This document shows, piece by piece, positions 11,667-48,979 of a DNA stretch of 52,576 nucleotides. The stretch spans positions 1-52,576 of IMG/VR virus record IMGVR_UViG_3300047560_000375, one strand, 5' to 3'. The stretch is from a virus. The notes under the pieces were generated by a model. The model saw nothing but the letters and a program-made list of their open reading frames with translations. It made no database searches and had not been told where the DNA came from. The position numbers and the translations under genes were made by a program. Each line of letters opens with the position of its first letter. Position 1 is the stretch's first letter.

Positions 11667-13106
11667 TTATTTCTTTAAGGAATTCAATAGTGATTTGAGC
11701 TTAGTGCTCTGTACGTCAACTACGACATTTTTGCTCAATGGTTCCGGCATTATTTCTCCGGTAGATTCGTCTATAGTTGACTGGGGTTTAATTCTACTCA
11801 TAATGTCGTTAGGGCTTGGACTGGGTTTATATTTTGCTTGTTGTTCAGCATATCCGTCCGGATCGCTATCAGAAATTCGCATAGTTTCAATATCATAGTC
11901 CAAGTCAATCTTCATACCCACGCCCGTTGAACTACGTGATTTCATACATTGAATTTGATACTTACCCTTCTCCCGCATGTGACGGCTTGTAAAGATACCG
12001 AACACGTTATCTGCTGTGTTAATCTTACTAATACCACCAGCAATGTGACTGTGGTCGAATTCGATTTCATCGACGGCTGAACGATTTAACTGTGATGCAG
12101 TTACTAACAATATTCCTAGTTCTTTAGCTAAGTTACGCAATTCTTCTGCTACATACTTGTCTTTGATAAACTGGTCGTTAGGATTAACTTTCACAGAAAC
12201 TGGCATGACCAAGTCTAAGTAATCGACCATCACAAAGTCAACTTTGATACCTGTTTGAATCTGTACTTCTTTTAAGTAACTACGAATGTCATTGACGTTA
12301 CTCTGAGCAGGTAATGCTTTGACACGATATTTACCTGCATGTTTTGAAACCATCTTAACTTTCAAGTGTGTTGAATCAATGTCTTTGCGAATTGATTTAG
12401 TTCCTTGATTAGTCAACATAGCATCAGTACGCAAACTTGTTAGTTCTTCTGAAAGTTCTAGTGTGATGTAAACACCACTCATTCCAACTTGCAACCAATT
12501 CAATGCTAAGTTCATCATAACAAGTGACTTACCTGAACCTGAGCCACCTGCAAAGATGTTCAATTCACCACGGCTCATACCACCATAGAGAATCTTATCC
12601 ATTTGGGGCCAGCCAGTAGATACTTGTCCACCTGCATTAAAGTATTTGTTGATACGTGCCTTAGGATCAGCAAAGTAATCAGTACCCATGTCTTTCTGTA
12701 GACTAATCTGTACTGCGTCCTTGATTAGTTTTTCAACTGGTGCGAACTCACCCTTCTCAAGCATATCAGCGGCTTTAAGAATAGCACGTTCTAATTCTTG
12801 TCTTTTAGTGAATGCTTCAAACGCATCTAAGAACCACTCGTTGTGTCCTTCATTCAATTCAGGTATCGGTTCAATGTCAACACCTGTCATCGCTTGAATC
12901 TGAGTGCGATCAGGCAATACTTTGTATTTGTCTGTATGTTCTTTGTACATTTCAGCCACTGGTCTAAGTGACTTGTCAAAATTCTCACTGTTCATAATGT
13001 TCATAACCCGAGTATATAACTCAGCGTCAGACAACATCATTCTCAAAAATAATTTTTGTACGTCCGGTGTATATTCTATTTGTTTAGAATCCGTTTTGTT
13101 TACCAA
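11667..13106 (-). CDS. 41: Replicative DNA helicase (T4 gp41/DnaB-like)
   Basis: 479 residues, close to the 475 of T4 gp41. Walker A GGSGSGKS lies at residues 187-194; the following GVYITLELSEE and the DFVMVDYLDLV Walker B strand match DnaB-family RecA-like motors. The N-terminal 130 residues are the helical, primase-interacting part. Role: hexameric 5'-3' helicase at the phage fork, paired with the primase encoded immediately upstream. The start is a TTG at 13106 with GAGG eight bases before it; it overlaps the primase gene by 23 bases, so the two subunits of the primosome are translationally coupled. The last 60 residues are a Pro/Ser-rich tail. Confidence 0.92.
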   Translation of the reverse strand: MVNKTDSKQIEYTPDVQKLFLRMMLSDAELYTRVMNIMNSENFDKSLRPVAEMYKEHTDKYKVLPDRTQIQAMTGVDIEPIPELNEGHNEWFLDAFEAFTKRQELERAILKAADMLEKGEFAPVEKLIKDAVQISLQKDMGTDYFADPKARINKYFNAGGQVSTGWPQMDKILYGGMSRGELNIFAGGSGSGKSLVMMNLALNWLQVGMSGVYITLELSEELTSLRTDAMLTNQGTKSIRKDIDSTHLKVKMVSKHAGKYRVKALPAQSNVNDIRSYLKEVQIQTGIKVDFVMVDYLDLVMPVSVKVNPNDQFIKDKYVAEELRNLAKELGILLVTASQLNRSAVDEIEFDHSHIAGGISKINTADNVFGIFTSRHMREKGKYQIQCMKSRSSTGVGMKIDLDYDIETMRISDSDPDGYAEQQAKYKPSPSPNDIMSRIKPQSTIDESTGEIMPEPLSKNVVVDVQSTKLKSLLNSLKK

Positions 13107-14058
13107 TTTTCTTCCTCTGCATTTCTATCTTTATTTTACTATTAGTTGCATTCTGTATGATACTTAGTAGGGTAGGTAGTTTGCCATATTTAACTACCGC
13201 ATCGTTCACATCCTTCACATCATTATCCCAATTCGGCAAGCTAACTTGGTAGCCTAGTTCTAGTGCCCTATCACACATTTTCATTCCCGTAGCATCACGA
13301 TCGGGTACTACAATAATTTGTTTATTCAACGTTCCCAACAATAACGCTTGATCCGAGCTTATGTCATCGTGCATCACTGCTACGCCGTCAATACTCAATG
13401 CGTCAAATATACCTTCTGTTAAAATACAAAATTGCCATTCGGGTTTTTGAATATCGATATTGAATACATATCCCTGTTGTTGCTCATTAATGTATTTTGG
13501 AATTTTGTTGTCTAAGAATCTACTCGTATGTCCTACGATTTTATTCTTATATGTGTATGGTATAATGACACGGTTTGCCATTCTACCTTTTTCATGCGGT
13601 GTGATTAAGAAGGGATATTCACTAGTATCTATCTTGCGTTTGTGCAGATAGTCTACGTATACTTTGTGTTCTGTGTTGTTTTGGTCAACAAGTTCACCTT
13701 CAGGTAACTCGTGTTCGTCAAATTTTATTTTGATTTTCTTTTTAGGTTGAGTGAAGTCCAGTAAGTCTTTGTGTTGTAAACTTTCTAAACTCCATCTTTG
13801 TACTTGCTGTTCATCGATTCCGCACCACACTAATAAGTTGCGTGTTTTTGAATTGATACTACGACCTAGTGTGAAATTGCACTTGAAACCACAATTGAAA
13901 CAATGCATTGTCCAGTTGTGTCCATCAAATTTGATACCACCTCGCATACGCTTATCGGATCTATGCCCGAAGTGGTTGCAACAAACTGCGTTGAAACTTG
14001 TCCAACCACTTGACGTTTGTTTTTTCTTACCGGGTATTATAGATAGGATATCAAACAC
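13084..14058 (-). CDS. 61: DNA primase (T4 gp61/DnaG-like)
   Basis: 324 residues, similar to T4 gp61 (342). An N-terminal zinc-binding module is visible: CCNHFGH at residues 26-32 and CFNC at 53-56. The TOPRIM core has the catalytic Glu at LTEGIFDALS (Glu215) and the D-x-D of VVPDRDATG (Asp253/Asp255). Role: synthesis of RNA primers on the lagging strand, within the gp41 helicase complex. Starts at GTG 14058. A sigma70-type promoter ends six bases before this codon and no ribosome binding site is present, so the transcript may be leaderless. Followed by the helicase with a 23-base overlap. Confidence 0.9.
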   Translation of the reverse strand: MFDILSIIPGKKKQTSSGWTSFNAVCCNHFGHRSDKRMRGGIKFDGHNWTMHCFNCGFKCNFTLGRSINSKTRNLLVWCGIDEQQVQRWSLESLQHKDLLDFTQPKKKIKIKFDEHELPEGELVDQNNTEHKVYVDYLHKRKIDTSEYPFLITPHEKGRMANRVIIPYTYKNKIVGHTSRFLDNKIPKYINEQQQGYVFNIDIQKPEWQFCILTEGIFDALSIDGVAVMHDDISSDQALLLGTLNKQIIVVPDRDATGMKMCDRALELGYQVSLPNWDNDVKDVNDAVVKYGKLPTLLSIIQNATNSKIKIEMQRKKIGKQNGF

Positions 14059-14093: not shown

Positions 14094-14109
14094 CTATTGT
14101 GGTTGATTT
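14087..14109 (-). terminator. Hairpin at the end of 14108-14794, weak terminator
   Basis: Perfect 8-bp stem AAATCAAC/GTTGATTT with a 7-base loop starting in the stop codon of the structural gene; only four T follow on the minus strand. Its distal arm contains the -35 of the primase promoter. Confidence 0.5.
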
Positions 14110-14794
14110 ATCTTGCCAATATGTTTGTAACTGCACCTGCATTGCTTGTGAATTGCATTCTGATATAAGGATGGTATCCACGGATTGTGTAACCTTTGGT
14201 TTCAGTGACGTTTGCTAAATCAACTTCTGTTGTGATTGGGTACCAGTCAGCGTCAACTACAGTAGAACCTTCAATGACTACGTTTCCATAATATTCCGTA
14301 TAGTGAGTTTGGATAGTCAATATTGGATTATCATTTGTAGTGATTACACTAGTGTAATAGATATGGTTAGATGTGTTTGCGTTGTTTGTATTCGGGAATT
14401 GCTGACCAGTTGGTATTGTTACTGGATAGCTAGGAACAAAGCTAGGCAACACTGAATTAACAATATTCATGTCACCACGAGCGCCTGCATTCTGATCCAC
14501 GAAAACAGGATAATCAAATTGCCCAACTGGAATCTCTAATGAATAGTATGCTTTTTGTGCGTCAATATCTTCGAGTTCAGCTGGATTTACAAACAATGCA
14601 CAAATACCAGTTGCGGGTAATTGTAGAGTCAGTGCCTTTTGTAACAATACTTCGTTACCCTCACTGTTGATAATTCTACACGTGATTTCTTTCCCTGTAA
14701 TATCAACAGGTTTTTGCTCTTGGTTTAAGAACTGGAATTGAATCTGGTTGTCAACTCCCTTATGTAGGGTTAAAGGTTTGGCGTAGACTGGCAT
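14108..14794 (-). CDS. Virion-type structural protein, unknown
   Basis: 228 residues from ATG 14794, chosen because AAGGAGATAT precedes it directly; a frame to 14872 exists but without a ribosome site. The protein starts MPVYAKPLTLHKG and continues with beta-rich sequence (residues 10-100 resemble an immunoglobulin-like 'ligand plus field' fold with QIQFQFLNQEQKPVDI). The C-terminal 80 residues alternate aromatic and Thr/Val residues. The middle is a Pro/Thr/Asn linker. Low charge and context point to a baseplate, tail or capsid accessory protein. No known name. Confidence 0.6.
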   Translation of the reverse strand: MPVYAKPLTLHKGVDNQIQFQFLNQEQKPVDITGKEITCRIINSEGNEVLLQKALTLQLPATGICALFVNPAELEDIDAQKAYYSLEIPVGQFDYPVFVDQNAGARGDMNIVNSVLPSFVPSYPVTIPTGQQFPNTNNANTSNHIYYTSVITTNDNPILTIQTHYTEYYGNVVIEGSTVVDADWYPITTEVDLANVTETKGYTIRGYHPYIRMQFTSNAGAVTNILAR

Positions 14795-14959
14795 ATATCT
14801 CCTTGGTGAATTGCCTGACAATAGTACGACAATATTTCGCTGAAAGTAATTAAAAACTGCGGTTGAATACACAAATGTAGGCTCCTGATAATGTATTTAG
14901 CTTTATAAACTTTTTGTGTTTGGTTTGCCCGATACTAAATATATTGACTTTTGAGTACA
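14795..14959. promoter_or_regulatory. Divergent intergenic region with two CTAAATA elements
   Basis: The only divergent gap in the window. GCTAAATA on the minus strand (14894-14901) faces the structural gene and ACTAAATA on the plus strand (14934-14941) faces the gene at 14960. Both resemble the late element with the first bases changed. No sigma70-type pair was found. Confidence 0.35.
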
Positions 14960-15340
14960 ATGATACAAAACGAATTTTTTAAGAAACTCAGCGAAAACCA
15001 CCCCTTCATCACAGTATGTTCATATGCCAACCAAGATTACGTTGGGATAGTTCAAAACCGTGATGACATGGTTACCACTATATATGATTATGGATCTATA
15101 ATTGATCCCTTGATAAAAGAAAAATTCCTAGAATTAGGTGATGTTTGGTGGTGGGAAAGTAATAGACTTATTCCTATTAACTTATTTCTAAAGGAAGAAT
15201 GGGCCCTGTTTAGGCCCTATCTAAGAACATTCAATAACAAAAGTTTAGTTATCGTACACGGACCTGTTTGTAGTATGGCTGAATTAAACAAACGCAGGTC
15301 TAAGCGCCGCTCTATCACATTAGTAAAAAGACTACCTTAA
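14960..15340 (+). CDS. Conserved hypothetical protein (only internal plus-strand gene)
   Basis: 126 residues from ATG 14960; the TTG at 14951 would add three residues. Starts MIQNEFFKKLSENHPFITVC, with an aromatic centre (LGDVWWWESNRLIPINLFL) and a basic C-terminal end (NKRRSKRRSITLVKRLP). The sequence looks like an Sm- or SH3-like small beta fold, with strand YVGIVQNRDDMVTTIYDYG; this is only an impression. Highly conserved-looking in aquatic T4-like phages, function unknown. Its stop overlaps that of the converging gene at 15337 and no terminator separates them. Confidence 0.65.
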   Translation: MIQNEFFKKLSENHPFITVCSYANQDYVGIVQNRDDMVTTIYDYGSIIDPLIKEKFLELGDVWWWESNRLIPINLFLKEEWALFRPYLRTFNNKSLVIVHGPVCSMAELNKRRSKRRSITLVKRLP

Positions 15341-15558
15341 AAATCTGTATTCTCTGACAGATATTTGTCAAATCTTTCAACGGCTTCGTTAAAGTCAATA
15401 GCCCAGACTTTTGCCTTCATAATACTTCCAACAATTTCCATATCAAACGGAATCGATCCGTTGAATCTGAAACTATCAGGGACTTCTACTTCTATGATAA
15501 ATTCCTGTAAATTTTTAGCTCTGAAAATTAAATTGGTTGCCATGTCTGCTGAATTCAT
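15337..15558 (-). CDS. Small hypothetical protein
   Basis: A 73-residue protein, MNSADMATNLIFRAKN at the start, with a beta-type first half and a helical end (FNEAVERFDKYLSENTDF). No recognised domain. ATG 15558 overlaps the stop of the DnaE-like gene (ATGA). It is the last gene of the 10-kb operon. Confidence 0.6.
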   Translation of the reverse strand: MNSADMATNLIFRAKNLQEFIIEVEVPDSFRFNGSIPFDMEIVGSIMKAKVWAIDFNEAVERFDKYLSENTDF

Positions 15559-16127
15559 GTTGATTCTCCTAGTAAATTCATATGCACTACGACAAGATGT
15601 GCATAGGCAACTGCGTGACTACGTTTGAATGTGTAGCCGTCTGTGCCCTTATCCCATACTGTTTTAGAAATGTCAGACCATGATTGACCTATCAAATGCT
15701 TTTTACCTGGACGAATGATTGCTAAAAACATAGCTAGTCTGGGTATGCTATCGATTGGTTCGGGCATTTTTTCTAAGTTATAGTATTGATTATTTAAGTG
15801 AATTAGCTTCTCTACAAAATCTTTATCATTGAGTTTAGACCAATCTGGATCACGCATTAATGAATGTAAGTGTTGTTCATCTTTTACGTTTTCATAAACA
15901 TGAACATTCAGTAAGTCTAATTTGAAATAGCCACGCTTTTCTGCCTCAACATAATCGATACTAGCCATGTCAGTTGCAGGATCATATGGTACATCAGTAA
16001 TGTAAACACCCGTAGCATGATGACGAATAGGTTTAACATTACGCATTGCCGCACGTGTGTGTTGAATTAGTTTCAATAATTCATCACGATTGCCAAAGTC
16101 AATATCTACGTCTGAATCTATTCTCAT
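15555..16127 (-). CDS. Miniature C-family DNA polymerase core (DnaE alpha-like fragment)
   Basis: 190 residues carrying the DnaE polymerase motifs in the same order as bacterial Pol III alpha, but compressed. SDVDIDF (5-11) matches PDxDxDF with the paired catalytic Asp. HATGVYI (37-43) matches HAGGVVI. GYFKLDLL (66-73) matches G-x-V-K-F-D-F-L with the third catalytic Asp (Asp71). RPG (139-141) and FKRSHAVAYA (167-176) match RPGP and FNKSHAxAYA. PHP, thumb, fingers, beta-binding and OB regions are missing; full DnaE is about 1100 residues. Known as a fragment annotated 'DNA polymerase III alpha' in aquatic T4-like phages; its activity is unknown. Coupled (ATGA) to the exonuclease gene upstream. 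Confidence 0.75.
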   Translation of the reverse strand: MRIDSDVDIDFGNRDELLKLIQHTRAAMRNVKPIRHHATGVYITDVPYDPATDMASIDYVEAEKRGYFKLDLLNVHVYENVKDEQHLHSLMRDPDWSKLNDKDFVEKLIHLNNQYYNLEKMPEPIDSIPRLAMFLAIIRPGKKHLIGQSWSDISKTVWDKGTDGYTFKRSHAVAYAHLVVVHMNLLGEST

Positions 16128-16684
16128 CTTGGTGTTACCAATCCTGCTTTCATTAATTTCATATATCCCTGTTGTACAACAATCGCTTGTCGTTCAGCAT
16201 CTTCCACAGCTTTGTGACTAGTTGAATGACCACCGTCTTTTAAACTTACTTGAGTAACTTCGTACAATGTTCTTGTGTCTCGCATTGACCAGAAGGGCCA
16301 GGGGATAGGGTTGGGTTTATCACTAACCTGTCTCCAGGCATGCTCCATAACGATAAGGTCAAATGGAGCGCCATTAGACCAGACAGCACGGCGATTCCAA
16401 CAAAACTTATAAAGGGTCTCCATGCACTCTTTAAACGGGATTCTACCTTCTTCACTGAATGCTTCTTCGAGGGCAGCCGGGTTTTGTTCGCTCCACCACC
16501 GTAATGTATCTTCATTTATGCTCCTATTATATATCTCAGTTTGATCCTCTACTGTAGGTTTTAACTCAAGTCGTTCTACAACACCTGAACCTTTAGGATC
16601 AAATCTAACTGCACCAATAGAAAGAATAACACAATCAGGTGTTGTGTTCAAACTCTCAATGTCAATCATAATATCATTTGCCAT
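16124..16684 (-). CDS. dexA: DEDDh 3'-5' exonuclease (DexA / Rv2179c-like)
   Basis: 186 residues. ExoI is MIDIESL (Asp8/Glu10 region), with an early Ser-Ile-Gly-Ala-Val-x-Phe strand; ExoII is WSNGAPFDLIVM; ExoIII is HKAVEDAERQA, giving the His and final Asp. This is the Rv2179c/DexA type of DEDDh nuclease, acting on ssDNA or RNA 3' ends; T4 DexA (227 residues) is the phage reference. The gene overlaps the miniature DnaE core by four bases, so the pair could act together, for example in proofreading or end trimming. ATG 16684 follows the last array gene by one base. Confidence 0.88.
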   Translation of the reverse strand: MANDIMIDIESLNTTPDCVILSIGAVRFDPKGSGVVERLELKPTVEDQTEIYNRSINEDTLRWWSEQNPAALEEAFSEEGRIPFKECMETLYKFCWNRRAVWSNGAPFDLIVMEHAWRQVSDKPNPIPWPFWSMRDTRTLYEVTQVSLKDGGHSTSHKAVEDAERQAIVVQQGYMKLMKAGLVTPR

Positions 16685-16685
16685 T

Positions 16686-16931
16686 TTATTCCCAGCGTAG
16701 TAAAAATAATGTTAAATCTGCATCGTTGCATAAGACAATCTCTCCCATTTCTGTATTGTCAATCCAACGATTGTCACCTGTTTCTTCTCTGTATCCGGAC
16801 TTACCAAATGTTTCAACACACCAGTTGTATATTTCAGATGCATCTACTTCTCCCTTACCTTTCCAAGAAATAGTATGGATGTTTTTTTTACTTCCATAAT
16901 AACGTTCTGTTTTGTGTGTGAAACTGCTCAT
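16686..16931 (-). CDS. LRW-array protein 1
   Basis: 81 residues. It has both array signatures: a helix motif E-I-Y-N-W-C (ASEIYNWCVETFG, about residue 33) and the C-terminal tail NDADLTLFLLRWE. Between them GDNRWIDN forms a short hairpin-like segment. This suggests a compact alpha-beta-beta-alpha domain of about 55 residues. Cytoplasmic, no signal. Last member of the array before the exonuclease gene. Function unknown. Confidence 0.7.
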   Translation of the reverse strand: MSSFTHKTERYYGSKKNIHTISWKGKGEVDASEIYNWCVETFGKSGYREETGDNRWIDNTEMGEIVLCNDADLTLFLLRWE

Positions 16932-17296
16932 TGTTTTAATACGTGTACAATATACTTTTTCTCTAACCTATCGGTGAATGTTTCAACATCATCCATGTTG
17001 TCAAACACTGCACCTAAAACTTCTCTGGGATCTTTTATATCACCACTTCTACGAATGCATTCCATCAAATCTTGTGAAGTTGATGTTGCTAACAATGTAG
17101 AACTCAACCACAACACATAACCGTTTGTTAATACGATTCCTATTTCCCAACTCTTAGAATCGTTAGCAATCATTTCAACTAACACATACAACTTTTCAGA
17201 ATATACATCTAAGCCAGTGATGTGGTTGTTCCAAGTAACTTTGTACTTGCCTTTGATTATTTCTAATTCACAGAGGTCAGTTTTTCCACATTTCAT
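16928..17296 (-). CDS. LRW-array protein 2 (divergent)
   Basis: About 122 residues from ATG 17296; the frame extends to a TTG at 17329 inside the previous gene. The N-terminal 75 residues look beta-rich (KYKVTWNNHITGLDVYS, WEIGIVLTNGYVLWL). The C-terminal tail ...RLEKKYIVHVLKQ is a degenerate form of the E-x-K-Y-x-x-F-x-L-R-W ending. No other motif. Overlaps both neighbours. Confidence 0.6.
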   Translation of the reverse strand: MKCGKTDLCELEIIKGKYKVTWNNHITGLDVYSEKLYVLVEMIANDSKSWEIGIVLTNGYVLWLSSTLLATSTSQDLMECIRRSGDIKDPREVLGAVFDNMDDVETFTDRLEKKYIVHVLKQ

Positions 17297-17555
17297 AAGT
17301 AAACTTTGCTTTATCGCCCCAGACTTCAACGTACAATATACCGCCTGCTAACCAAAAATCCCATCCACTGTGTCGCTCACCTAAATTTCTGCGACACCAC
17401 TTGATATGTTCCATTTCATTAATTTTACGAAAGTTTAAATCAATTTTATATAACACGTGACCATTGCGTGTGTCCCGTTCTACACCGCTACGGTCTTCTT
17501 GTTGACCATATTGTTGTAACGGGGCGAATGTTCCTGTGCTTGTTCCTAATGCCAT
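17277..17555 (-). CDS. LRW-array protein 3 (divergent)
   Basis: About 92 residues from ATG 17555, which overlaps the upstream stop by one base (TAATG). It keeps the helix motif NEMEHIKWCRRNLG and the central Trp segment (GWDFWLAGG), but the tail is altered to DKAKFTYEMWKN. N-terminal 40 residues are polar and probably flexible. Confidence 0.6.
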   Translation of the reverse strand: MALGTSTGTFAPLQQYGQQEDRSGVERDTRNGHVLYKIDLNFRKINEMEHIKWCRRNLGERHSGWDFWLAGGILYVEVWGDKAKFTYEMWKN

Positions 17556-17773
17556 TATTGATACCTCAATGCGAACCATGTCGCCAATTCTTCTTTGTAA
17601 AACTTGAATATTGTATGTCGATTATACACTGCATCACCTGACCAGTCATCGTATTTGGGCTTGTGATATTCAAAGTCAAAGTCTATACCCTGAACATACC
17701 CTTGACTTCGTAGTTCTCTGACAATATCTAAGACTTCACTAGGAAGCCAATCTACTATTTTGACTTCTTTCAT
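17555..17773 (-). CDS. LRW-array protein 4
   Basis: 72 residues, MKEVKIVDWLPSEVLDIV at the start; tail YKEELATWFALRYQ fits the array pattern with Tyr for Trp. Helix 1 is SEVLDIVRELRSQGY, followed by a Tyr-rich hairpin. ATG 17773 overlaps the upstream TGA (ATGA). Confidence 0.65.
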   Translation of the reverse strand: MKEVKIVDWLPSEVLDIVRELRSQGYVQGIDFDFEYHKPKYDDWSGDAVYNRHTIFKFYKEELATWFALRYQ

Positions 17774-18018
17774 TCTGGAAACATTATCCTAAACCAAGTA
17801 GCATACTTATCTTCTTGGAACGTAAGGTTCCAAACTGTCACGTGGCCCCTATAAGTCACGCCGTGCCCTTCCATTTCTACTTCTTCTGTGCCTTTCTTAG
17901 CAATCCAACCTTCTCCGCCGATTGAGTTGTGAAGGTAGTGAAGTCTCGGGCCTACATTCTTAGCAAGCCAGTTTTCGTGTTCACCGTATAGTTGTTTGAT
18001 TTTAATTGTGACCGCCAC
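17770..18018 (-). CDS. LRW-array protein 5 (divergent tail)
   Basis: 82 residues from GTG 18018, supported by GGAGG seven bases upstream, the strongest ribosome site in the array. Tail QEDKYATWFRIMFPE keeps the acidic-aromatic helix and replaces LRW with a RIMF ending. Centre is a Gly/His-rich strand region (GHGVTYRGHVTVWNL). Confidence 0.65.
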   Translation of the reverse strand: MAVTIKIKQLYGEHENWLAKNVGPRLHYLHNSIGGEGWIAKKGTEEVEMEGHGVTYRGHVTVWNLTFQEDKYATWFRIMFPE

Positions 18019-18264
18019 TTATCCTCCCCATCTTAGTGCGGCTAGTAAATAATCACGCTCGTGTCTAAATTTTGATTTAATCATGCCCTCTTCGATTTCC
18101 CATAGTGCATGACGTTCACAATTGTCAATCGCTTCATATAACCAAATAATAAATTCTGAACACACTTCATCTTCTTTTTCTATAGGAAAATGCACACGTA
18201 GTTCATACCAACCTGGCTTCATATCAACCCAATTTTTATTGTAGATTACGTTATGAATTCTCAT
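18019..18264 (-). CDS. LRW-array protein 6
   Basis: About 81 residues from ATG 18264, whose ATG overlaps the upstream TGA (ATGA); ATG 18270 is also possible. Tail RHERDYLLAALRWGG. Contains a helix with EFIIWLYEAIDNCERHALW in place of the usual W-C helix. Confidence 0.65.
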   Translation of the reverse strand: MRIHNVIYNKNWVDMKPGWYELRVHFPIEKEDEVCSEFIIWLYEAIDNCERHALWEIEEGMIKSKFRHERDYLLAALRWGG

Positions 18265-18527
18265 GCCCATCGCAAAATAAACCATTCCATATCTTTTTGT
18301 TCACGAAACCAAAACCTAGAATTATTTATATACCATCGACCACCGGGAACAAACACACCGCCTTCAGGTCGGGGTCCATATGTTGTCTCACACCATTCTA
18401 CCATTTCATCCCATTCTGTTTTAAACCAAGTTGGAACATCTGCAACAAATTCAGGTTGCACAGTAAAATATCTTGCTCCGTAAACTCGCCCTTCATCAAT
18501 TAATAATGCTTTGTCAATTATCGTCAT
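18261..18527 (-). CDS. LRW-array protein 7
   Basis: 88 residues. Clear helix motif WDEMVEWCETTYG, central GGRWYINNSRFWF and the classic tail REQKDMEWFILRWA. Close in layout to array proteins 1 and 18. ATG overlaps the upstream stop (ATGA). Confidence 0.7.
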   Translation of the reverse strand: MTIIDKALLIDEGRVYGARYFTVQPEFVADVPTWFKTEWDEMVEWCETTYGPRPEGGVFVPGGRWYINNSRFWFREQKDMEWFILRWA

Positions 18528-18805
18528 GTGAATCTCAATAAAAAAATAATATATTTTTTCTCGTCCATAATTTTATATCCATCAGTTATATTGCCGTCTA
18601 CTATGTTCATCTTTATACCATAGTTTGCTTCAATGTAATCTTCAAACTCAAATGCATCAAATTGTCCAGCAAGGTCATTCAGTGATTCCATGTACTCTAT
18701 GCGAACTTTTTTTAATGCACTCCAGTAATCCCAGCGTTTCTTACGAAATTCCATTTCTGGGCCATCGTCATCATAATCTTGAAATGATTTAGGAATGTTA
18801 GTCAT
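18524..18805 (-). CDS. LRW-array protein 8 (YI-NYGIKM subgroup)
   Basis: About 93 residues from ATG 18805, two bases after the upstream stop; the longer frame to 18865 lies inside the previous gene. Contains EDYIEANYGIKMNIVDG, then a hairpin and tail MDEKKYIIFLLRFT. The same block (KYIENNYGIKMWI) is in array protein 13, so these two are recent paralogues; protein 15 is a more distant relative. Confidence 0.7.
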   Translation of the reverse strand: MTNIPKSFQDYDDDGPEMEFRKKRWDYWSALKKVRIEYMESLNDLAGQFDAFEFEDYIEANYGIKMNIVDGNITDGYKIMDEKKYIIFLLRFT

Positions 18806-18806
18806 A

Positions 18807-19067
18807 TCAAACCCATCGTAGAATAAACCACTCAGCGTCTTGTTTATTTTCAAACACATAGTCACTACCTAATCTACGATAGTCACCGGTACATGTCCCA
18901 GCTAACCAAATCTGTATATCAGTCGCTTGAGGACCATTCTTAAAATAAAATTTTACAGGTGTCCAACCGGTTTCAATTAACATAGTTGCTATGATTCCTT
19001 CATCAATTTCTTTGGCAATTTGTTTGCCAATCTCATCCATCATTTCTTCTTCTAGTGTTTTTCTCAT
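18807..19067 (-). CDS. LRW-array protein 9
   Basis: About 86 residues from ATG 19067, overlapping the upstream TGA (ATGA); the 127-residue frame to 19190 would cover the previous gene. N-terminal helix is acidic (RKTLEEEMMDEIGKQIAKE). Tail ENKQDAEWFILRWV is a near-perfect array ending. Confidence 0.7.
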   Translation of the reverse strand: MRKTLEEEMMDEIGKQIAKEIDEGIIATMLIETGWTPVKFYFKNGPQATDIQIWLAGTCTGDYRRLGSDYVFENKQDAEWFILRWV

Positions 19068-19408
19068 ACCCATCTTAATGTCATCCAGGTAAATAATTCT
19101 TCGTTTACTAAAAATCGTGTCATAGCAAAATGACAACCCTCTGTTTCTTCTGCATACTTCCACAAATGCGGTGGTTGTGTAAGTATCCACGATTCAACAC
19201 TTGGTCTAACATCAATTGCTATGCAGTTATGAGGGTATAACACAGTTTCGTTTTGATTCTCAACGATTAAGTAAGGCTTGAATGAAACTTGACCGTTTTC
19301 TACTTTAAAGGGGCTAGATGGGTCACCGGGCTTGGTAAATTTTTCAGTAACCTCTTTCTGAAGATTGCCACCCATCATCTTTAACACTCTGTTTATTGAT
19401 TCTAACAT
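19064..19408 (-). CDS. LRW-array protein 10
   Basis: About 114 residues from ATG 19408, overlapping the upstream stop (TAATG). N-terminal Lys-rich helix, central strand region, tail VNEELFTWMTLRWV. Confidence 0.68.
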   Translation of the reverse strand: MLESINRVLKMMGGNLQKEVTEKFTKPGDPSSPFKVENGQVSFKPYLIVENQNETVLYPHNCIAIDVRPSVESWILTQPPHLWKYAEETEGCHFAMTRFLVNEELFTWMTLRWV

Positions 19409-19851
19409 TAACTCCACCTCAACTTGAACATGATATAGTCTTGCTCATTCATAAAAGCAAAGTAAACAAAGTCACTACCACCAATATCATTGAACCACCA
19501 ATCTTCGTGGGTATCACCGTCTATGCCTATTCCAGTTTGACGATATACTCTATTAATATCCATGCGATACTTGAATCTACATTTAAGTTCACACCAATCT
19601 CGCATATCTTCGTAACCAAATCTAAGTCCGCCGGGTCCCCAATCAGCTATACATTGATAAGCATAATGTGTGGTATCACATCTAAACACATATTTGTACT
19701 TAGAATAGAAGTCACTTACCTTATCAGCATAGCGGACAACATCAGGATCACGATTGTGTCTATAGCTTCGCCATGTAAGGTAGCCACTCTTTGCTAACTT
19801 TCGGTGAGCAAGATATCGGCGCCAACGTGCTTTAAGTCTTAGTATTTTCAT
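19408..19851 (-). CDS. LRW-array protein 11 (with basic N-terminal extension)
   Basis: 147 residues, the longest array protein. The first 35 residues are very basic (MKILRLKARWRRYLAHRKLA) and may bind nucleic acid or membrane. Then YEDMRDWCELKCRF (array helix), a DWWFND segment and the tail MNEQDYIMFKLRWS. Overlaps the upstream gene by 20 bases. Confidence 0.7.
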   Translation of the reverse strand: MKILRLKARWRRYLAHRKLAKSGYLTWRSYRHNRDPDVVRYADKVSDFYSKYKYVFRCDTTHYAYQCIADWGPGGLRFGYEDMRDWCELKCRFKYRMDINRVYRQTGIGIDGDTHEDWWFNDIGGSDFVYFAFMNEQDYIMFKLRWS

Positions 19852-20134
19852 AAACTAATAAATCAAATGCTGTTGCATATTGTGTTTCAGGCTCCATATG
19901 AAAGCCTGTGCCCCACACTACCCATACTTTTCTTTTGTATGCTTTCTCCCAGAAGATGCGTTTACCCGTGACTGTCTTTCTAGGTAAAAAAGCAAAGTAC
20001 TCTGTCCAAGGATAGCAATCTGCGCCACCTTCTATAATTGTGTATTCCATAGGGTTAAATCCTGCAGGTATATGTCTTCCAATTCCATTAAAACTCATGT
20101 TGTCTCCGATGCTTCTGTTCCAAAGTATTTTCAT
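19832..20134 (-). CDS. LRW-array protein 12 (divergent)
   Basis: 100 residues from ATG 20134 (ATGA overlap). It ends EPETQYATAFDLLVYENTKT: the acidic-aromatic helix is kept but LRW is lost and the chain continues. Centre is aromatic and basic (FWEKAYKRKVWVVWG). ATG 20098 is an alternative start. Confidence 0.6.
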   Translation of the reverse strand: MKILWNRSIGDNMSFNGIGRHIPAGFNPMEYTIIEGGADCYPWTEYFAFLPRKTVTGKRIFWEKAYKRKVWVVWGTGFHMEPETQYATAFDLLVYENTKT

Positions 20135-20361
20135 TTGTGTTTAAGTATGCACCACGTATACTTACCTTCGTCTAAAATTTCAAAAGTACCATCAATCTTA
20201 CCGTCATTATGAATCCACATTTTTATTCCATAATTGTTCTCAATGTACTTGTCAAAACTATCGCTGAACCCTGTGTATGACGGTTCATAGTAACCAGTAT
20301 ACTGCTTGTCGTATTCTGTTTTAAGAATTCTTAACAAGTGCCAGTAATCGTACTTGTTCAT
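20131..20361 (-). CDS. LRW-array protein 13 (YI-NYGIKM subgroup)
   Basis: 76 residues, paralogue of array protein 8 over FxxxYIExNYGIKMxI and the following hairpin; tail LDEGKYTWCILKHK is a degraded LRW. ATG 20361 overlaps the upstream stop (ATGA). Confidence 0.68.
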   Translation of the reverse strand: MNKYDYWHLLRILKTEYDKQYTGYYEPSYTGFSDSFDKYIENNYGIKMWIHNDGKIDGTFEILDEGKYTWCILKHK

Positions 20362-20636
20362 CTATATTCTTTCATAGTGATTTCTTCATACTCACCTGCA
20401 AATGCTATTCTGAATACTTTAGCGGATTCACTGTGTTCAAACTGAACCACATCATAGTCTATTGGTCTATCCATTTTACTGTAAACACTTTGCCACTCAA
20501 CATGCCAACGACTGAATGGACCTTTCTCTGGATAGGCTTCTGCCCATTGGTACATCTCAGTGGTACACTTTTTTACTTTGAATCTGTATGTAAAAACTGG
20601 GCGATTGTTACCACCGCCACCGTAAAAATATTCCAT
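20358..20636 (-). CDS. LRW-array protein 14 (extended tail)
   Basis: 92 residues. Helix TTEMYQWAEAYPE and central RWHVEW match the array; the tail EHSESAKVFRIAF runs on for ten more residues (to MKEYR). The ATG at 20636 directly abuts the upstream stop at 20637. Confidence 0.62.
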   Translation of the reverse strand: MEYFYGGGGNNRPVFTYRFKVKKCTTEMYQWAEAYPEKGPFSRWHVEWQSVYSKMDRPIDYDVVQFEHSESAKVFRIAFAGEYEEITMKEYR

Positions 20637-20888
20637 TTATTGCCACCTCAGCAAGAACATTACGAACTTTTGTTCATCAACTACACGATAATCTTTCATA
20701 TTGTAATCTTTGTCTAACTTTACTTCTACCCCGTATTCGACCAACACATGATGAAGTTGTGCATCATATACAGGATTGCCTGTGACTACTTTTGCTTCTG
20801 GGAGAACTGACCAATAATGATTAGGTGACGGTTGTCCTATACTTTCCACGGCTCGTGCCAATATTAGTTGTAAGTCACAAGATTTCAT
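20637..20888 (-). CDS. LRW-array protein 15
   Basis: About 83 residues from ATG 20888 (ATGA overlap with the upstream TGA). HHVLVEYGVEVKL then DYRVVDEQKFVMFLLRWQ; the middle is distantly like the NYGIKM subgroup. Confidence 0.68.
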   Translation of the reverse strand: MKSCDLQLILARAVESIGQPSPNHYWSVLPEAKVVTGNPVYDAQLHHVLVEYGVEVKLDKDYNMKDYRVVDEQKFVMFLLRWQ

Positions 20889-21112
20889 GCCCACCTCAAC
20901 AAAAACCATTCATAATCTTGTTTGCGCTTAAAAGCAAAGTAACGAGTAACATTTCTCCAATTTTTACTTTTGAAGTTTGTGTAACAGAATCGCTCGGCGT
21001 TACCAATATCATACCAGGATTTGATTTCCATCTGATAGGGCCAGTAGGTATCATTTTGCCAATAACCGTCAAACGATCTCTCAATCAAATTTTTCACTGA
21101 TGTATTATCCAT
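20885..21112 (-). CDS. LRW-array protein 16
   Basis: About 75 residues from ATG 21112 (TAATG overlap). GNAERFCYTNFKS stands in place of the W-C helix, then NWRNVTRYFAF and tail KRKQDYEWFLLRWA. Confidence 0.7.
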   Translation of the reverse strand: MDNTSVKNLIERSFDGYWQNDTYWPYQMEIKSWYDIGNAERFCYTNFKSKNWRNVTRYFAFKRKQDYEWFLLRWA

Positions 21113-21372
21113 TATGACCACTTCAATACAAAAAATGTATGACTTTCTTCATTGTCCCACCGCAAGTACCAACCTTGTGTGCTAGTTTGAATCAGTTTAC
21201 CACCTAATGGTTTAAGTTCACGATTTGCAACAGTAATAGGCATCCAACCATTCAATCTAGCAGTAATAGAACAAGTGTTCCAGAAGTCATTAAAATACTT
21301 GGGCCAAGGATCATGCCATGGTCTGCCTACAGGAACGATAAATCTTTCTCTAACAAAATAAGGTTCTCTCAT
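21112..21372 (-). CDS. LRW-array protein 17
   Basis: About 86 residues from ATG 21372 (ATGA overlap). Pro/Trp-rich N-terminus, centre with QGWYLRW, tail DNEESHTFFVLKWS. Confidence 0.68.
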   Translation of the reverse strand: MREPYFVRERFIVPVGRPWHDPWPKYFNDFWNTCSITARLNGWMPITVANRELKPLGGKLIQTSTQGWYLRWDNEESHTFFVLKWS

Positions 21373-21605
21373 AGCCACCTCAAACTAAAACGAATTGCAT
21401 CTTCTTCTTTTAAGAAATAAAAGTCCATGTAATCTTCAGTTGGGTGTGTCGTATAATATGTACCAGGCACGCCGTAATGTTCCATTGCCCAAATGCAGGT
21501 TTCATCCCAATCACTAATAGTATCACCCTTCTTCCAGGGTATGCGTACTCTAGTACCCCGCCAGTTTGAGGGTTTCTCTGATTTGTTGTTTAAGGTTTGT
21601 GTCAC
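21369..21605 (-). CDS. LRW-array protein 18 (first of the array)
   Basis: 78 residues from GTG 21605, overlapping the zinc-finger gene by 56 bases; no ATG is available further in. Helix WDETCIWAMEHYG, hairpin DYMDFYFL, tail LKEEDAIRFSLRWL. Being first, it marks the left boundary of the array with the zinc-finger gene. Confidence 0.65.
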   Translation of the reverse strand: MTQTLNNKSEKPSNWRGTRVRIPWKKGDTISDWDETCIWAMEHYGVPGTYYTTHPTEDYMDFYFLKEEDAIRFSLRWL

Positions 21606-46455: not shown

Positions 46456-47712
46456 TTATTTATCTCGCAATTTAGAAAGATTGGGATTTACATCTTTTAA
46501 GTAATGATTTCTGTGGTTGTCGAATATATCAGTATATTTAAAAAACTGCTGTAAGTTTTCCGTGTAATCTACGCTTTCCCTGCATTTTTCTCGCACTGTC
46601 TTTAATCTAGAATGAAACAGAAAACCCTGGTATCTACAGTGATTCTTTACCCACTCGTCTATTTTATTCAAGCATTCTGTTTTGTAGTCTAATGGAAGAT
46701 ATGTAAAATCATAGTAGTCTGGTTGATTCAGAATGATAGGGGCTACTGTTACTTTGTTTCTTTTATATTCTCTGTTGAAACTTTCTGCATATTCGAATAA
46801 TTCTGTAATGTACGCTAGATTGCTTTTCTGTAGCACTGGGTTAATTGTAATTGATATATTGTCGCTGGGTAGTGCTACGACTTTTCTAAAGTTACTATCA
46901 ATTTGTTTCCAGTTACTTGGGTATCTATTATATTCTTGTATTGGGCCAACGCCATCAATACTTGCTAGAAAAGTTACTTTCTTGAAGTAGGGTAATAGCG
47001 AATAGAAGTCTTTCTTAGTGTTTGTTAAGTTAGTGCTTATTTGAAGTTCGATATGTTTACTATGCTCAGTGTTGACCATGTATTCCATGAACTCGTAGTT
47101 TTTATCTATTATTGTAGGTTCGCCGCCCGCCGCATAGTATTTCTTTAAGTTAGGTATCTGTTTATATACTTCATTGTTGAATATTGCAGTCTCATACCAA
47201 GTGTTATAATCTTTATCTGTTGAAGAAAAGATAATAGTTTTTGCCTGTTCGTTTATGTTTTTAATCTCTTTATTGTAAGATGAACTGGCTTCTGTATAGC
47301 AATAACGACATGATAGATTGCAAAGATTACCAAATCGTAGGTCAAAGAATTCAATGGCAGCGTCAATGTCTTTATCTTCTAGTGACTGATTTAGTTTATC
47401 TCTAAAACTTGCAGTGTTAAACCACTCTTGATTATATCGTGTTCTGTGACTAGAATTACTATACTTCTCAGATCGGTAACAGTCCTCACAACCATCGATG
47501 GGCTTACCCTCAATCATATCCTTGCGTATACTCTTGTAGTCAGCACTATTTAAGATTGTGTCGATAGTCTGACTACCCAAGTTGTAGTTGTTCCCGTTTT
47601 CATCTTTGATAAATCGGTTAGACATACAACATATTCTAGGGCTTCCGTCGGTGTGTGCCGCAATGTGGATCCACGGAAAAACACAAAAACTTTTATTGTT
47701 TGACAAATTCAT
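46456..47712 (-). CDS. Twitch-type radical SAM enzyme 1
   Basis: 418 residues. Radical SAM CX3CX2C motif is CNLSCRYC (Cys131/135/138). Before it are Cys10 (FCVFPW), Cys28/29 (CCM), and Cys75/78 (CEDC), which make the N-terminal twitch domain that holds an auxiliary Fe-S cluster. AAGGEPTII follows as the SAM-binding Gly-rich strand. Function: 5'-deoxyadenosyl radical chemistry on an unknown substrate. Close paralogue (about half identical by eye) of the next gene. Not a member of a pathway I can name. ATG 47712. Confidence 0.85.
   Translation of the reverse strand: MNLSNNKSFCVFPWIHIAAHTDGSPRICCMSNRFIKDENGNNYNLGSQTIDTILNSADYKSIRKDMIEGKPIDGCEDCYRSEKYSNSSHRTRYNQEWFNTASFRDKLNQSLEDKDIDAAIEFFDLRFGNLCNLSCRYCYTEASSSYNKEIKNINEQAKTIIFSSTDKDYNTWYETAIFNNEVYKQIPNLKKYYAAGGEPTIIDKNYEFMEYMVNTEHSKHIELQISTNLTNTKKDFYSLLPYFKKVTFLASIDGVGPIQEYNRYPSNWKQIDSNFRKVVALPSDNISITINPVLQKSNLAYITELFEYAESFNREYKRNKVTVAPIILNQPDYYDFTYLPLDYKTECLNKIDEWVKNHCRYQGFLFHSRLKTVREKCRESVDYTENLQQFFKYTDIFDNHRNHYLKDVNPNLSKLRDK
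46457..46464 (-). promoter_or_regulatory. Late-type promoter element at the end of radical SAM 1
   Basis: GATAAATA on the minus strand. It spans the last codons Asp-Lys-stop of the radical SAM gene and lies five bases before the spanin ATG. Confidence 0.5.
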
Positions 47713-47722
47713 TTGCTTTTTG

Positions 47723-48979
47723 TTATTTATATACTATGTCAAACAGTTCAGGATTTACATCACGTAAATAAAATTGTCTGTGTTTGTCAAAAATGTTAGT
47801 GAATTCTCTAAAACGAGCCAATTCATGCTCGTAGGGAGTATCTGTCATGCATTTGTTTTTTAGTTCTTTCATTTTAGATGTAAACCACACATCTTGAAAT
47901 TTGCATTTGGTGTCAATCCAATGTTGTATCTTGTCCCAACAGTATGTCTTATATTCTAGTGGTAAATATGTTAAATCTAACTGATTGGGGACATACAATA
48001 TTATAGGTGAGATTGCAACGACTGGTTTGTTTTCAGCAATATTGAACGATTCTATATATTCAAATAGATCAACCATATACCCAAGGTTTACGTTTTGAAT
48101 AACGGGCGTTACGTTTATTGATATGTTTGACTTTTTGTTTGAAATTAACTTTTTGAAGTTTTTATCAATCTGTTGCCATTTGCTTGGATATCTAATATAT
48201 TCCTGAATTACTCCAAAACCATCAATGCTTGCAAAAAATACAACATGCTTGAATTGATTGATTATATTCAGAAATCTATCTTGCATGTTAGTCATGTTTG
48301 AATTCAACTTCAATGTAATGTCTTTTGCTTTGTCCTGTTCAATCAAGTATTCTAACACTTCATAGTTCTTTTCGATTATCGTTGGTTCTCCACCAGTGAC
48401 ATATAGTTCTTTAATGTTGTCCAGCTGTGATGTTATGTTATCAAAGAATTGACTAGTAGAATACCAGCCGTTGATATCGATAACTGGTTTTATTTCCATG
48501 AAAGAAGATATTGCTGATTTTTCGTTTAGTTCTATCAATTCTTTTTCATATTGAATTGAATTATCGGGACTACAACTTTTGCAGTTGAGATTGCACATAT
48601 TACCGAAACGTAAATCAAAATATTCCACTGTTTCTGTAATCTCAGTTCCCTCCATTAATTTTTGGCTGATTGACGGAACGTCACTCCACTTTAAATTATA
48701 CTGACTTCTATAGCTAGCACCAGTAGTATTTTCTTCTATTTGATAGCAACGTTCACACCCTGCAACAGGGATGCCTTGAATCATTTTTTCTCTAATGTCT
48801 TTGTATCCATTAGAGTTTATTATATCAGATAATGAATCTCTACCTAAATTAAACGCATTGCCATTGTCTTTGTTGACTGTAACTGAGGATATACAGCAAG
48901 GCTTTACATCACCATTGGGTGCTGTGGCAATGTGCATCCAAGGAAGTACACAAAAACTTTTATTGTTTGAAAAATCCAT
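47723..48979 (-). CDS. Twitch-type radical SAM enzyme 2
   Basis: 418 residues, same length and layout as radical SAM 1: FCVLPW, CCIS, CERCY, then CNLNCKSC (CX3CX2C) and VTGGEPTII. The two proteins differ most in the middle third, so they may have different substrates or form a heterodimer. Overlaps the aminotransferase by 20 bases. Its Fe-S clusters could be supplied by host or phage IscA-like carrier. Confidence 0.85.
   Translation of the reverse strand: MDFSNNKSFCVLPWMHIATAPNGDVKPCCISSVTVNKDNGNAFNLGRDSLSDIINSNGYKDIREKMIQGIPVAGCERCYQIEENTTGASYRSQYNLKWSDVPSISQKLMEGTEITETVEYFDLRFGNMCNLNCKSCSPDNSIQYEKELIELNEKSAISSFMEIKPVIDINGWYSTSQFFDNITSQLDNIKELYVTGGEPTIIEKNYEVLEYLIEQDKAKDITLKLNSNMTNMQDRFLNIINQFKHVVFFASIDGFGVIQEYIRYPSKWQQIDKNFKKLISNKKSNISINVTPVIQNVNLGYMVDLFEYIESFNIAENKPVVAISPIILYVPNQLDLTYLPLEYKTYCWDKIQHWIDTKCKFQDVWFTSKMKELKNKCMTDTPYEHELARFREFTNIFDKHRQFYLRDVNPELFDIVYK
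47724..47731 (-). promoter_or_regulatory. Late-type promoter, exact TATAAATA
   Basis: TATAAATA on the minus strand encodes Tyr-Lys-stop at the end of radical SAM 2 and lies 11 bases before ATG 47712. Confidence 0.5.

Follow-up and report, generated by a model that had tools for sequence, protein, structure and literature searches.

A predicted two-chain minimal DNA polymerase III alpha in an uncultivated phage and its relatives, with the active site divided between distant genes

Phage DNA polymerases made of two polypeptides are known from T4-like phages, in which family B polymerase genes occur in split form (as an example, gp43A/B of Aeh1), the splitting being tied to homing endonucleases. 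A split minimal DNA polymerase III (Pol III) alpha has been described, as a prediction from genomes, in the group 2.2 jumbo phages, among which Atu_ph07 is named and which also possess a family B polymerase (Iyer et al. 2021, PMC7824862); earlier genome papers saw the N-terminal half alone, describing it as Pol III alpha in truncated form (CBB_328, PMC5259590). A literature search for later experimental work on the split polymerase, or for a test of its activity, found none. The object of the present analysis is a viral DNA of 52,576 nucleotides (IMG/VR record IMGVR_UViG_3300047560_000375, hereafter the window), and in particular its gene at 15555-16127 on the minus strand (190 amino acids (aa), ATG start), predicted to encode the C-terminal, metal-binding half (C-half) of a split minimal Pol III alpha, i.e., DnaE. 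The resemblance to the described system is close: Atu_ph07 is among the C-half relatives found here, the window harbors a standalone C-unit of about 190 aa with the metal-binding aspartate (Asp) triad, and both a separate, distant gene for the N-terminal half (N-half) and a family B polymerase are present in the window's relatives. The difference is that the window comes from an uncultivated member whose C-half shares 45% identity with the closest named ones. As a prediction, then, the split enzyme had already been published, and the window adds a member and a sharper anatomy to it; what is added to Iyer et al. comprises a residue-level split point, co-occurrence counts, a 141-kb circular host genome (Slicko01), a lineage-specific exonuclease neighbour, a conserved primase-helicase synteny and selection estimates.

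The earlier note on this DNA, which relied on the reading of motifs, had claimed five DnaE landmarks in order within 190 residues, and all of them were found in the C-half: D6-V-D8-I-D10-F, H37-ATGVYI, K69-L-D71-L-L, R139-P-G and F167-K-R-S-H171-AVAY175A. According to the residue numbers taken from the profile alignment to DnaE (hhalign), the first two catalytic Asp, D6 and D8 (16104-16112), correspond to D401 and D403 of Escherichia coli alpha, H37 of the HxxGV motif (16017-16019) to H511 of HAGGVVI, K69 and the third catalytic Asp, D71 (15915-15923), to K553 and D555, R139-P140 of the RPG motif (15708-15713) to R639, and the FKRSHAVAY motif from F167 to Y175 (15603-15629) to FNKSH760-AAY, all of these lying on the minus strand. 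The catalytic triad that the note held to be preserved is therefore in place, and it is invariant in 65 distinct C-half sequences, together with D10, H37, G40, K69, R139, P140, K142, F167, K168, H171 and Y175. The same landmarks (catalytic triad, HxxGV, KxDxL, RPG, SHAxAY) occur in the same order in bacterial DnaE (E. coli NP_414726.1), with which the palm fold is also shared; the phage enzyme differs from it in consisting of two chains, in having no PHP domain and a thumb that is nearly gone, and in possessing about 89 finger residues fewer.

This set of landmarks is not due to chance, since the C-half matches phrog_11778 ("DNA polymerase", 197 aa) over nearly its full length (residues 5-188, E = 5.5e-57), tblastn retrieved 63 phage records, and one scan of IMG/VR, where hundreds of intact copies exist overall, confirmed 203 relatives. 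The label of phrog_11778 conceals one half of an active site; three full-size DnaE-type PHROGs match the C-half just at its C-terminal SHAxAY stretch (E 0.004-0.012). With the single C-half sequence, a Pfam search gave no match and phmmer against the PDB disclosed no relation to DnaE, so that profiles and structure were needed to establish the relationship; since Pfam alone gave nothing, the motif reading added real information.

The AlphaFold model of the C-half, built with 59 related sequences, has a mean predicted local distance difference test (pLDDT) of 92.7 and shows strands at residues 6-10, 23-27, 34-41 and 68-73. When the model was compared with the PDB using Foldseek, the first eight matches were all Pol III alpha (probability 0.95-1.00, query TM-score 0.35-0.52), and no credible match followed these eight chains. 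On the strength of this model, the C-half is predicted to carry the three catalytic Asp on a palm of the Pol-beta type, as the earlier note had anticipated, and neither of the two outcomes that the note held to speak against its reading (most homologues without the catalytic Asp, or no such palm) was encountered; its DnaE ancestry is borne out by phrog_11778, by the DnaE profile alignment and by the Pol III alpha matches of Foldseek. The spacing of the landmarks, compared with that of E. coli alpha, reveals where residues are missing: 29 residues instead of 108 separate the second Asp from HxxGV (thumb, about 79 fewer), and 32 instead of 121 separate RPG from SHAxAY (fingers, about 89 fewer), while the chain stops soon after SHAxAY, leaving nothing beyond approximately residue 785 of E. 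coli. A search for a detached PHP gene was negative in all 12 records (0/12), and one for a detached finger gene found no finger domain family over the cut-off in 12 records.

The GRGS motif is not in the C-half chain either, which starts downstream of the GRGS position. The idea of a self-contained miniature DnaE core has therefore to be abandoned, because relatives encode this motif in the distant N-half gene. In a search of eleven relatives' records with PF07733, a second DnaE fragment was found above the curated cut-off in ten, as a separate gene of about 171 aa. The profile of this N-half matches Pol III alpha chains of the PDB with E down to 1.9e-6, and the best PDB matches of its AlphaFold model (pLDDT 88.1) in Foldseek are again Pol III alpha. 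The two halves cover complementary portions of E. coli alpha: by hhalign, the N-half extends from about residue 242, just past the PHP domain, to N393 (E = 1.8e-9), and the first residue of the C-half corresponds to about R396. Since the one ends near N393 and the other begins near R396, the break, as read from the alignments, separates the helix with the triphosphate-binding GRGS from the strand that bears the two Asp. Every N-half has GRGS and every C-half has DxDxD, the split point is the same in all the N- and C-halves compared, and nearly all N-halves terminate in [DE]xFL[KR] followed by the stop codon. Intein-mediated joining of the halves was considered and set aside, as the N-halves stop immediately at EFLK; no intein or endonuclease adjoining the C-half was found, though these were not exhaustively looked for. 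With the split family B polymerase of T4-like phages the present case shares the fact that one phage polymerase is made as two polypeptides; the polymerase family is another one, and the halves of the phage Pol III alpha lie 11-220 kb apart.

The two halves occur together almost without exception. Both are present in 59 of the 60 listed cultured-phage records, the lone exception being a 109-kb partial record, and in all 59 pairs they are on the same strand (median spacing 34 kb, minimum 11.4 kb). Twelve of 17 further records have both, the other five being fragments of 111-191 kb with one half, and all of the IMG/VR records of at least 200 kb that were examined (7/7) contain both. None of the 169 open reading frames (ORFs) of the C-half and the 94 of the N-half was a fusion of the two. 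As a separate observation, one virus (contig IMGVR_UViG_3300027804_000045) carries, besides both split halves, a contiguous 559-aa DnaE-like polymerase devoid of PHP (PF07733 plus the finger domain PF17657; locus L279, 4890-6569, plus strand). The split mini-polymerase also extends below the jumbo limit, being present in the 141-kb genomes of the Alishewanella phages Slicko01, a circular phage, and Slickus01 (OQ508956 and OQ508957), whose C-half identity is just 32%.

As a rule, polymerases of families B and C come from different domains of life. A family B polymerase was detected in the records of all eleven relatives (11/11), to which this count refers, the corresponding gene lying outside the window fragment; no family A polymerase exceeded the cut-off in these eleven records. 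These phages thus keep both polymerase families, and the family C one appears as a bare active site cut between its triphosphate- and metal-binding motifs. The family B polymerase of NC_042013 (Atu_ph07) and that of OQ508956 (Slicko01) also appear as two successive open frames (418/578 and 578/322 aa, respectively).

On the whole, it is quite probable that the C-half and the distant N-half form a minimal Pol III alpha that is specific to phages and made of two polypeptides, likely assembling into one active site. The C-half would give the three metal-binding Asp on a Pol-beta-type palm together with a shortened finger remnant (RPG, FKxSHAxAY), and the N-half of about 171 aa would supply the preceding palm helices with the triphosphate-binding motif GRGSSxxS. 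The two chains most likely associate non-covalently, completing an active site of about 360 residues from which PHP, nearly the whole thumb, a large part of the fingers and all that follows them are missing. Once assembled, they would act in nucleotidyl transfer as a small Pol-beta-fold enzyme helping the family B replicase. Processive replication is disfavoured because the thumb and fingers are lost, and the primase-helicase setting described below suggests short synthesis or repair; the biological job might then tentatively be a short, low-processivity synthesis, e.g., primer extension or the repair of gaps or of the lagging strand, beside the primase-helicase and the family B replicase. A more specific proposal stands at about even chances: a thumb-less enzyme of two subunits, about 360 residues in all, which would need both chains for activity, would work at the phage primosome alongside the family B replicase, either in templated synthesis or in some other nucleotidyl transfer, and would represent the smallest working family C active site, found beyond jumbo phages. 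A working two-chain enzyme, if true, would show the minimum of Pol III alpha needed for catalysis and the use of a second polymerase.

Some observations weigh against this reconstruction. The N-half was not found in the 52-kb window by the PF07733 search; this can be explained by the window being a fragment (52.6 kb of an unfinished contig, the closest relatives reaching 230-303 kb), since the C-half of the closest long relative (G001) is followed, about 49 kb downstream and on the same strand, by the N-half, and a like spacing would place the N-half of the window's phage past the left edge of the window. The sequence match of the C-half to DnaE is weak, the hhalign probability being 17.6% against the single E. 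coli DnaE and 67% (E = 5e-5) with deeper profiles, and its Foldseek E-values are modest (0.004-0.04). Moreover, without thumb and most of the fingers, the binding of a primer-template by the predicted pair is doubtful, and the pair might be something other than a DNA polymerase.

The surroundings of the C-half gene bear upon these readings. A DNA primase (Toprim; 13084-14058, minus strand; phrog_47, E = 5.5e-33) and a DnaB-like replicative helicase (11667-13106, minus strand; phrog_19, E = 1e-67) are conserved neighbours: among the relatives with enough flanking sequence, the primase is downstream of the C-half in 47/47 close and 55/55 intermediate relatives and in 6/6 cultured ones, and the helicase in 36/36 close and 46/47 intermediate relatives as well as at each of the six cultured loci. 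A gp44-like clamp loader is encoded close to the N-half in GAP32, PA5oct and Phosso. Taken together, the conserved catalytic residues, the lost thumb and PHP, the partner gene and the primase, helicase and clamp-loader neighbours speak for an enzyme that works in the DNA metabolism of the phage.

Among the other explanations, the one that survives best, although it is unlikely, is that the halves form a palm-like nucleotidyltransferase other than a templated DNA polymerase, for instance an enzyme for end-tailing, nucleotidylation or signalling that reuses the Pol-beta-type site. It would account for the retention of the triphosphate- and metal-binding residues in proteins that have lost the thumb, about 89 finger residues, PHP and the C-terminal domains, in phages that already own a family B replicase; however, RPG and FKxSHAxAY, which belong to the fingers of Pol III alpha, are still invariant, and the C-half gene stands beside primase and helicase throughout.

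A rather improbable reading couples the mini-DnaE with the adjacent exonuclease, as a polymerase-proofreader or end-repair module. The latter gene (16124-16684, minus strand) encodes a DEDDh 3'-5' exonuclease of 186 aa, Rv2179c/DexA-like (PF16473, E = 3.3e-32; phrog_255, E = 3.2e-38), with IDIE at residue 7, PFD at 107 and HKAVEDAE around 160, so that DxE, the central D and H...D are all there. Its ORF overlaps that of the C-half by exactly four bases (16124-16127), as the earlier note had reported in proposing a joint role, and an exonuclease is close upstream of the C-half in 62/62 of the close relatives and 50/65 of the intermediate ones. In contrast, it is near the C-half in none of the six cultured relatives (0/6), PF16473 being undetected in four of these phages and weak and elsewhere in two, and the family is scattered, close exonuclease homologues occurring in 695 phage records compared with the 63 that have the C-half. 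The proofreading pair was rejected as a family-wide feature; the pairing is a local arrangement restricted to one lineage, not a conserved part of the system, and the joint role is not sustained.

It is very improbable that the halves are non-catalytic regulators or mimics, acting as palm-shaped decoys that bind the clamp, the clamp loader, the primase or the host Pol III. Small size, the loss of DNA-handling domains and the possession of an own replicase would fit such a role, but none of the catalytic or triphosphate-site residues varies among distantly related phages with many different hosts, and a decoy would need neither those residues nor both halves of an active site; mimicry of the host palm, suggested earlier, thus finds no support.

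As for selection, the median ratios of nonsynonymous to synonymous substitutions (dN/dS, NG86) are 0.098 for the C-half (maximum 0.24), 0.143 for the exonuclease and 0.197 for the N-half, values that are rough, the synonymous divergence being near saturation. As judged from these low ratios, the C-half is under purifying selection and decay is excluded, in agreement with what the earlier note had maintained. The possibility of a captured host dnaE in decay, which the loss of large DnaE parts might evoke, has a negligible probability in view of these ratios, the hundreds of intact copies, the identical split point everywhere and the deep divergence.

The remaining genes around the C-half were also inspected. 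Its end overlaps by four bases a 73-aa ORF without a family (15337-15558, minus strand). Directly downstream, a small convergent gene whose function is unassigned (14951-15340, plus strand; phrog_11637) holds its place across distant phages, being beside the C-half in 68/68 close and 62/71 intermediate relatives and in 5/6 cultured ones. It is followed by a conserved neighbour that is weakly structural-protein-like (14108-14872, minus strand; phrog_1084, phrog_14467).

Upstream of the exonuclease, at 16686-21605 on the minus strand, the window contains a tandem run of small genes, at least 11 in number (72-147 aa), which show little similarity to one another overall and encode proteins that share a C-terminal motif (e.g., ENKQDAEWFILRWV, MNEQDYIMFKLRWS, REQKDMEWFILRWA); the ten proteins searched had no PHROG match. 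The motif ends 12 of the 295 ORFs of the window, 11 of them in the tandem run and none on the plus strand. In relatives it occurs up to 22 times per 20-kb C-half locus (L186, L132, L175), and it is almost absent near N-half loci and from cultured phages. Lastly, two adjacent radical S-adenosylmethionine (SAM) proteins of 418 aa each, with QueE-like matches, are encoded at 46456-48979 on the minus strand.
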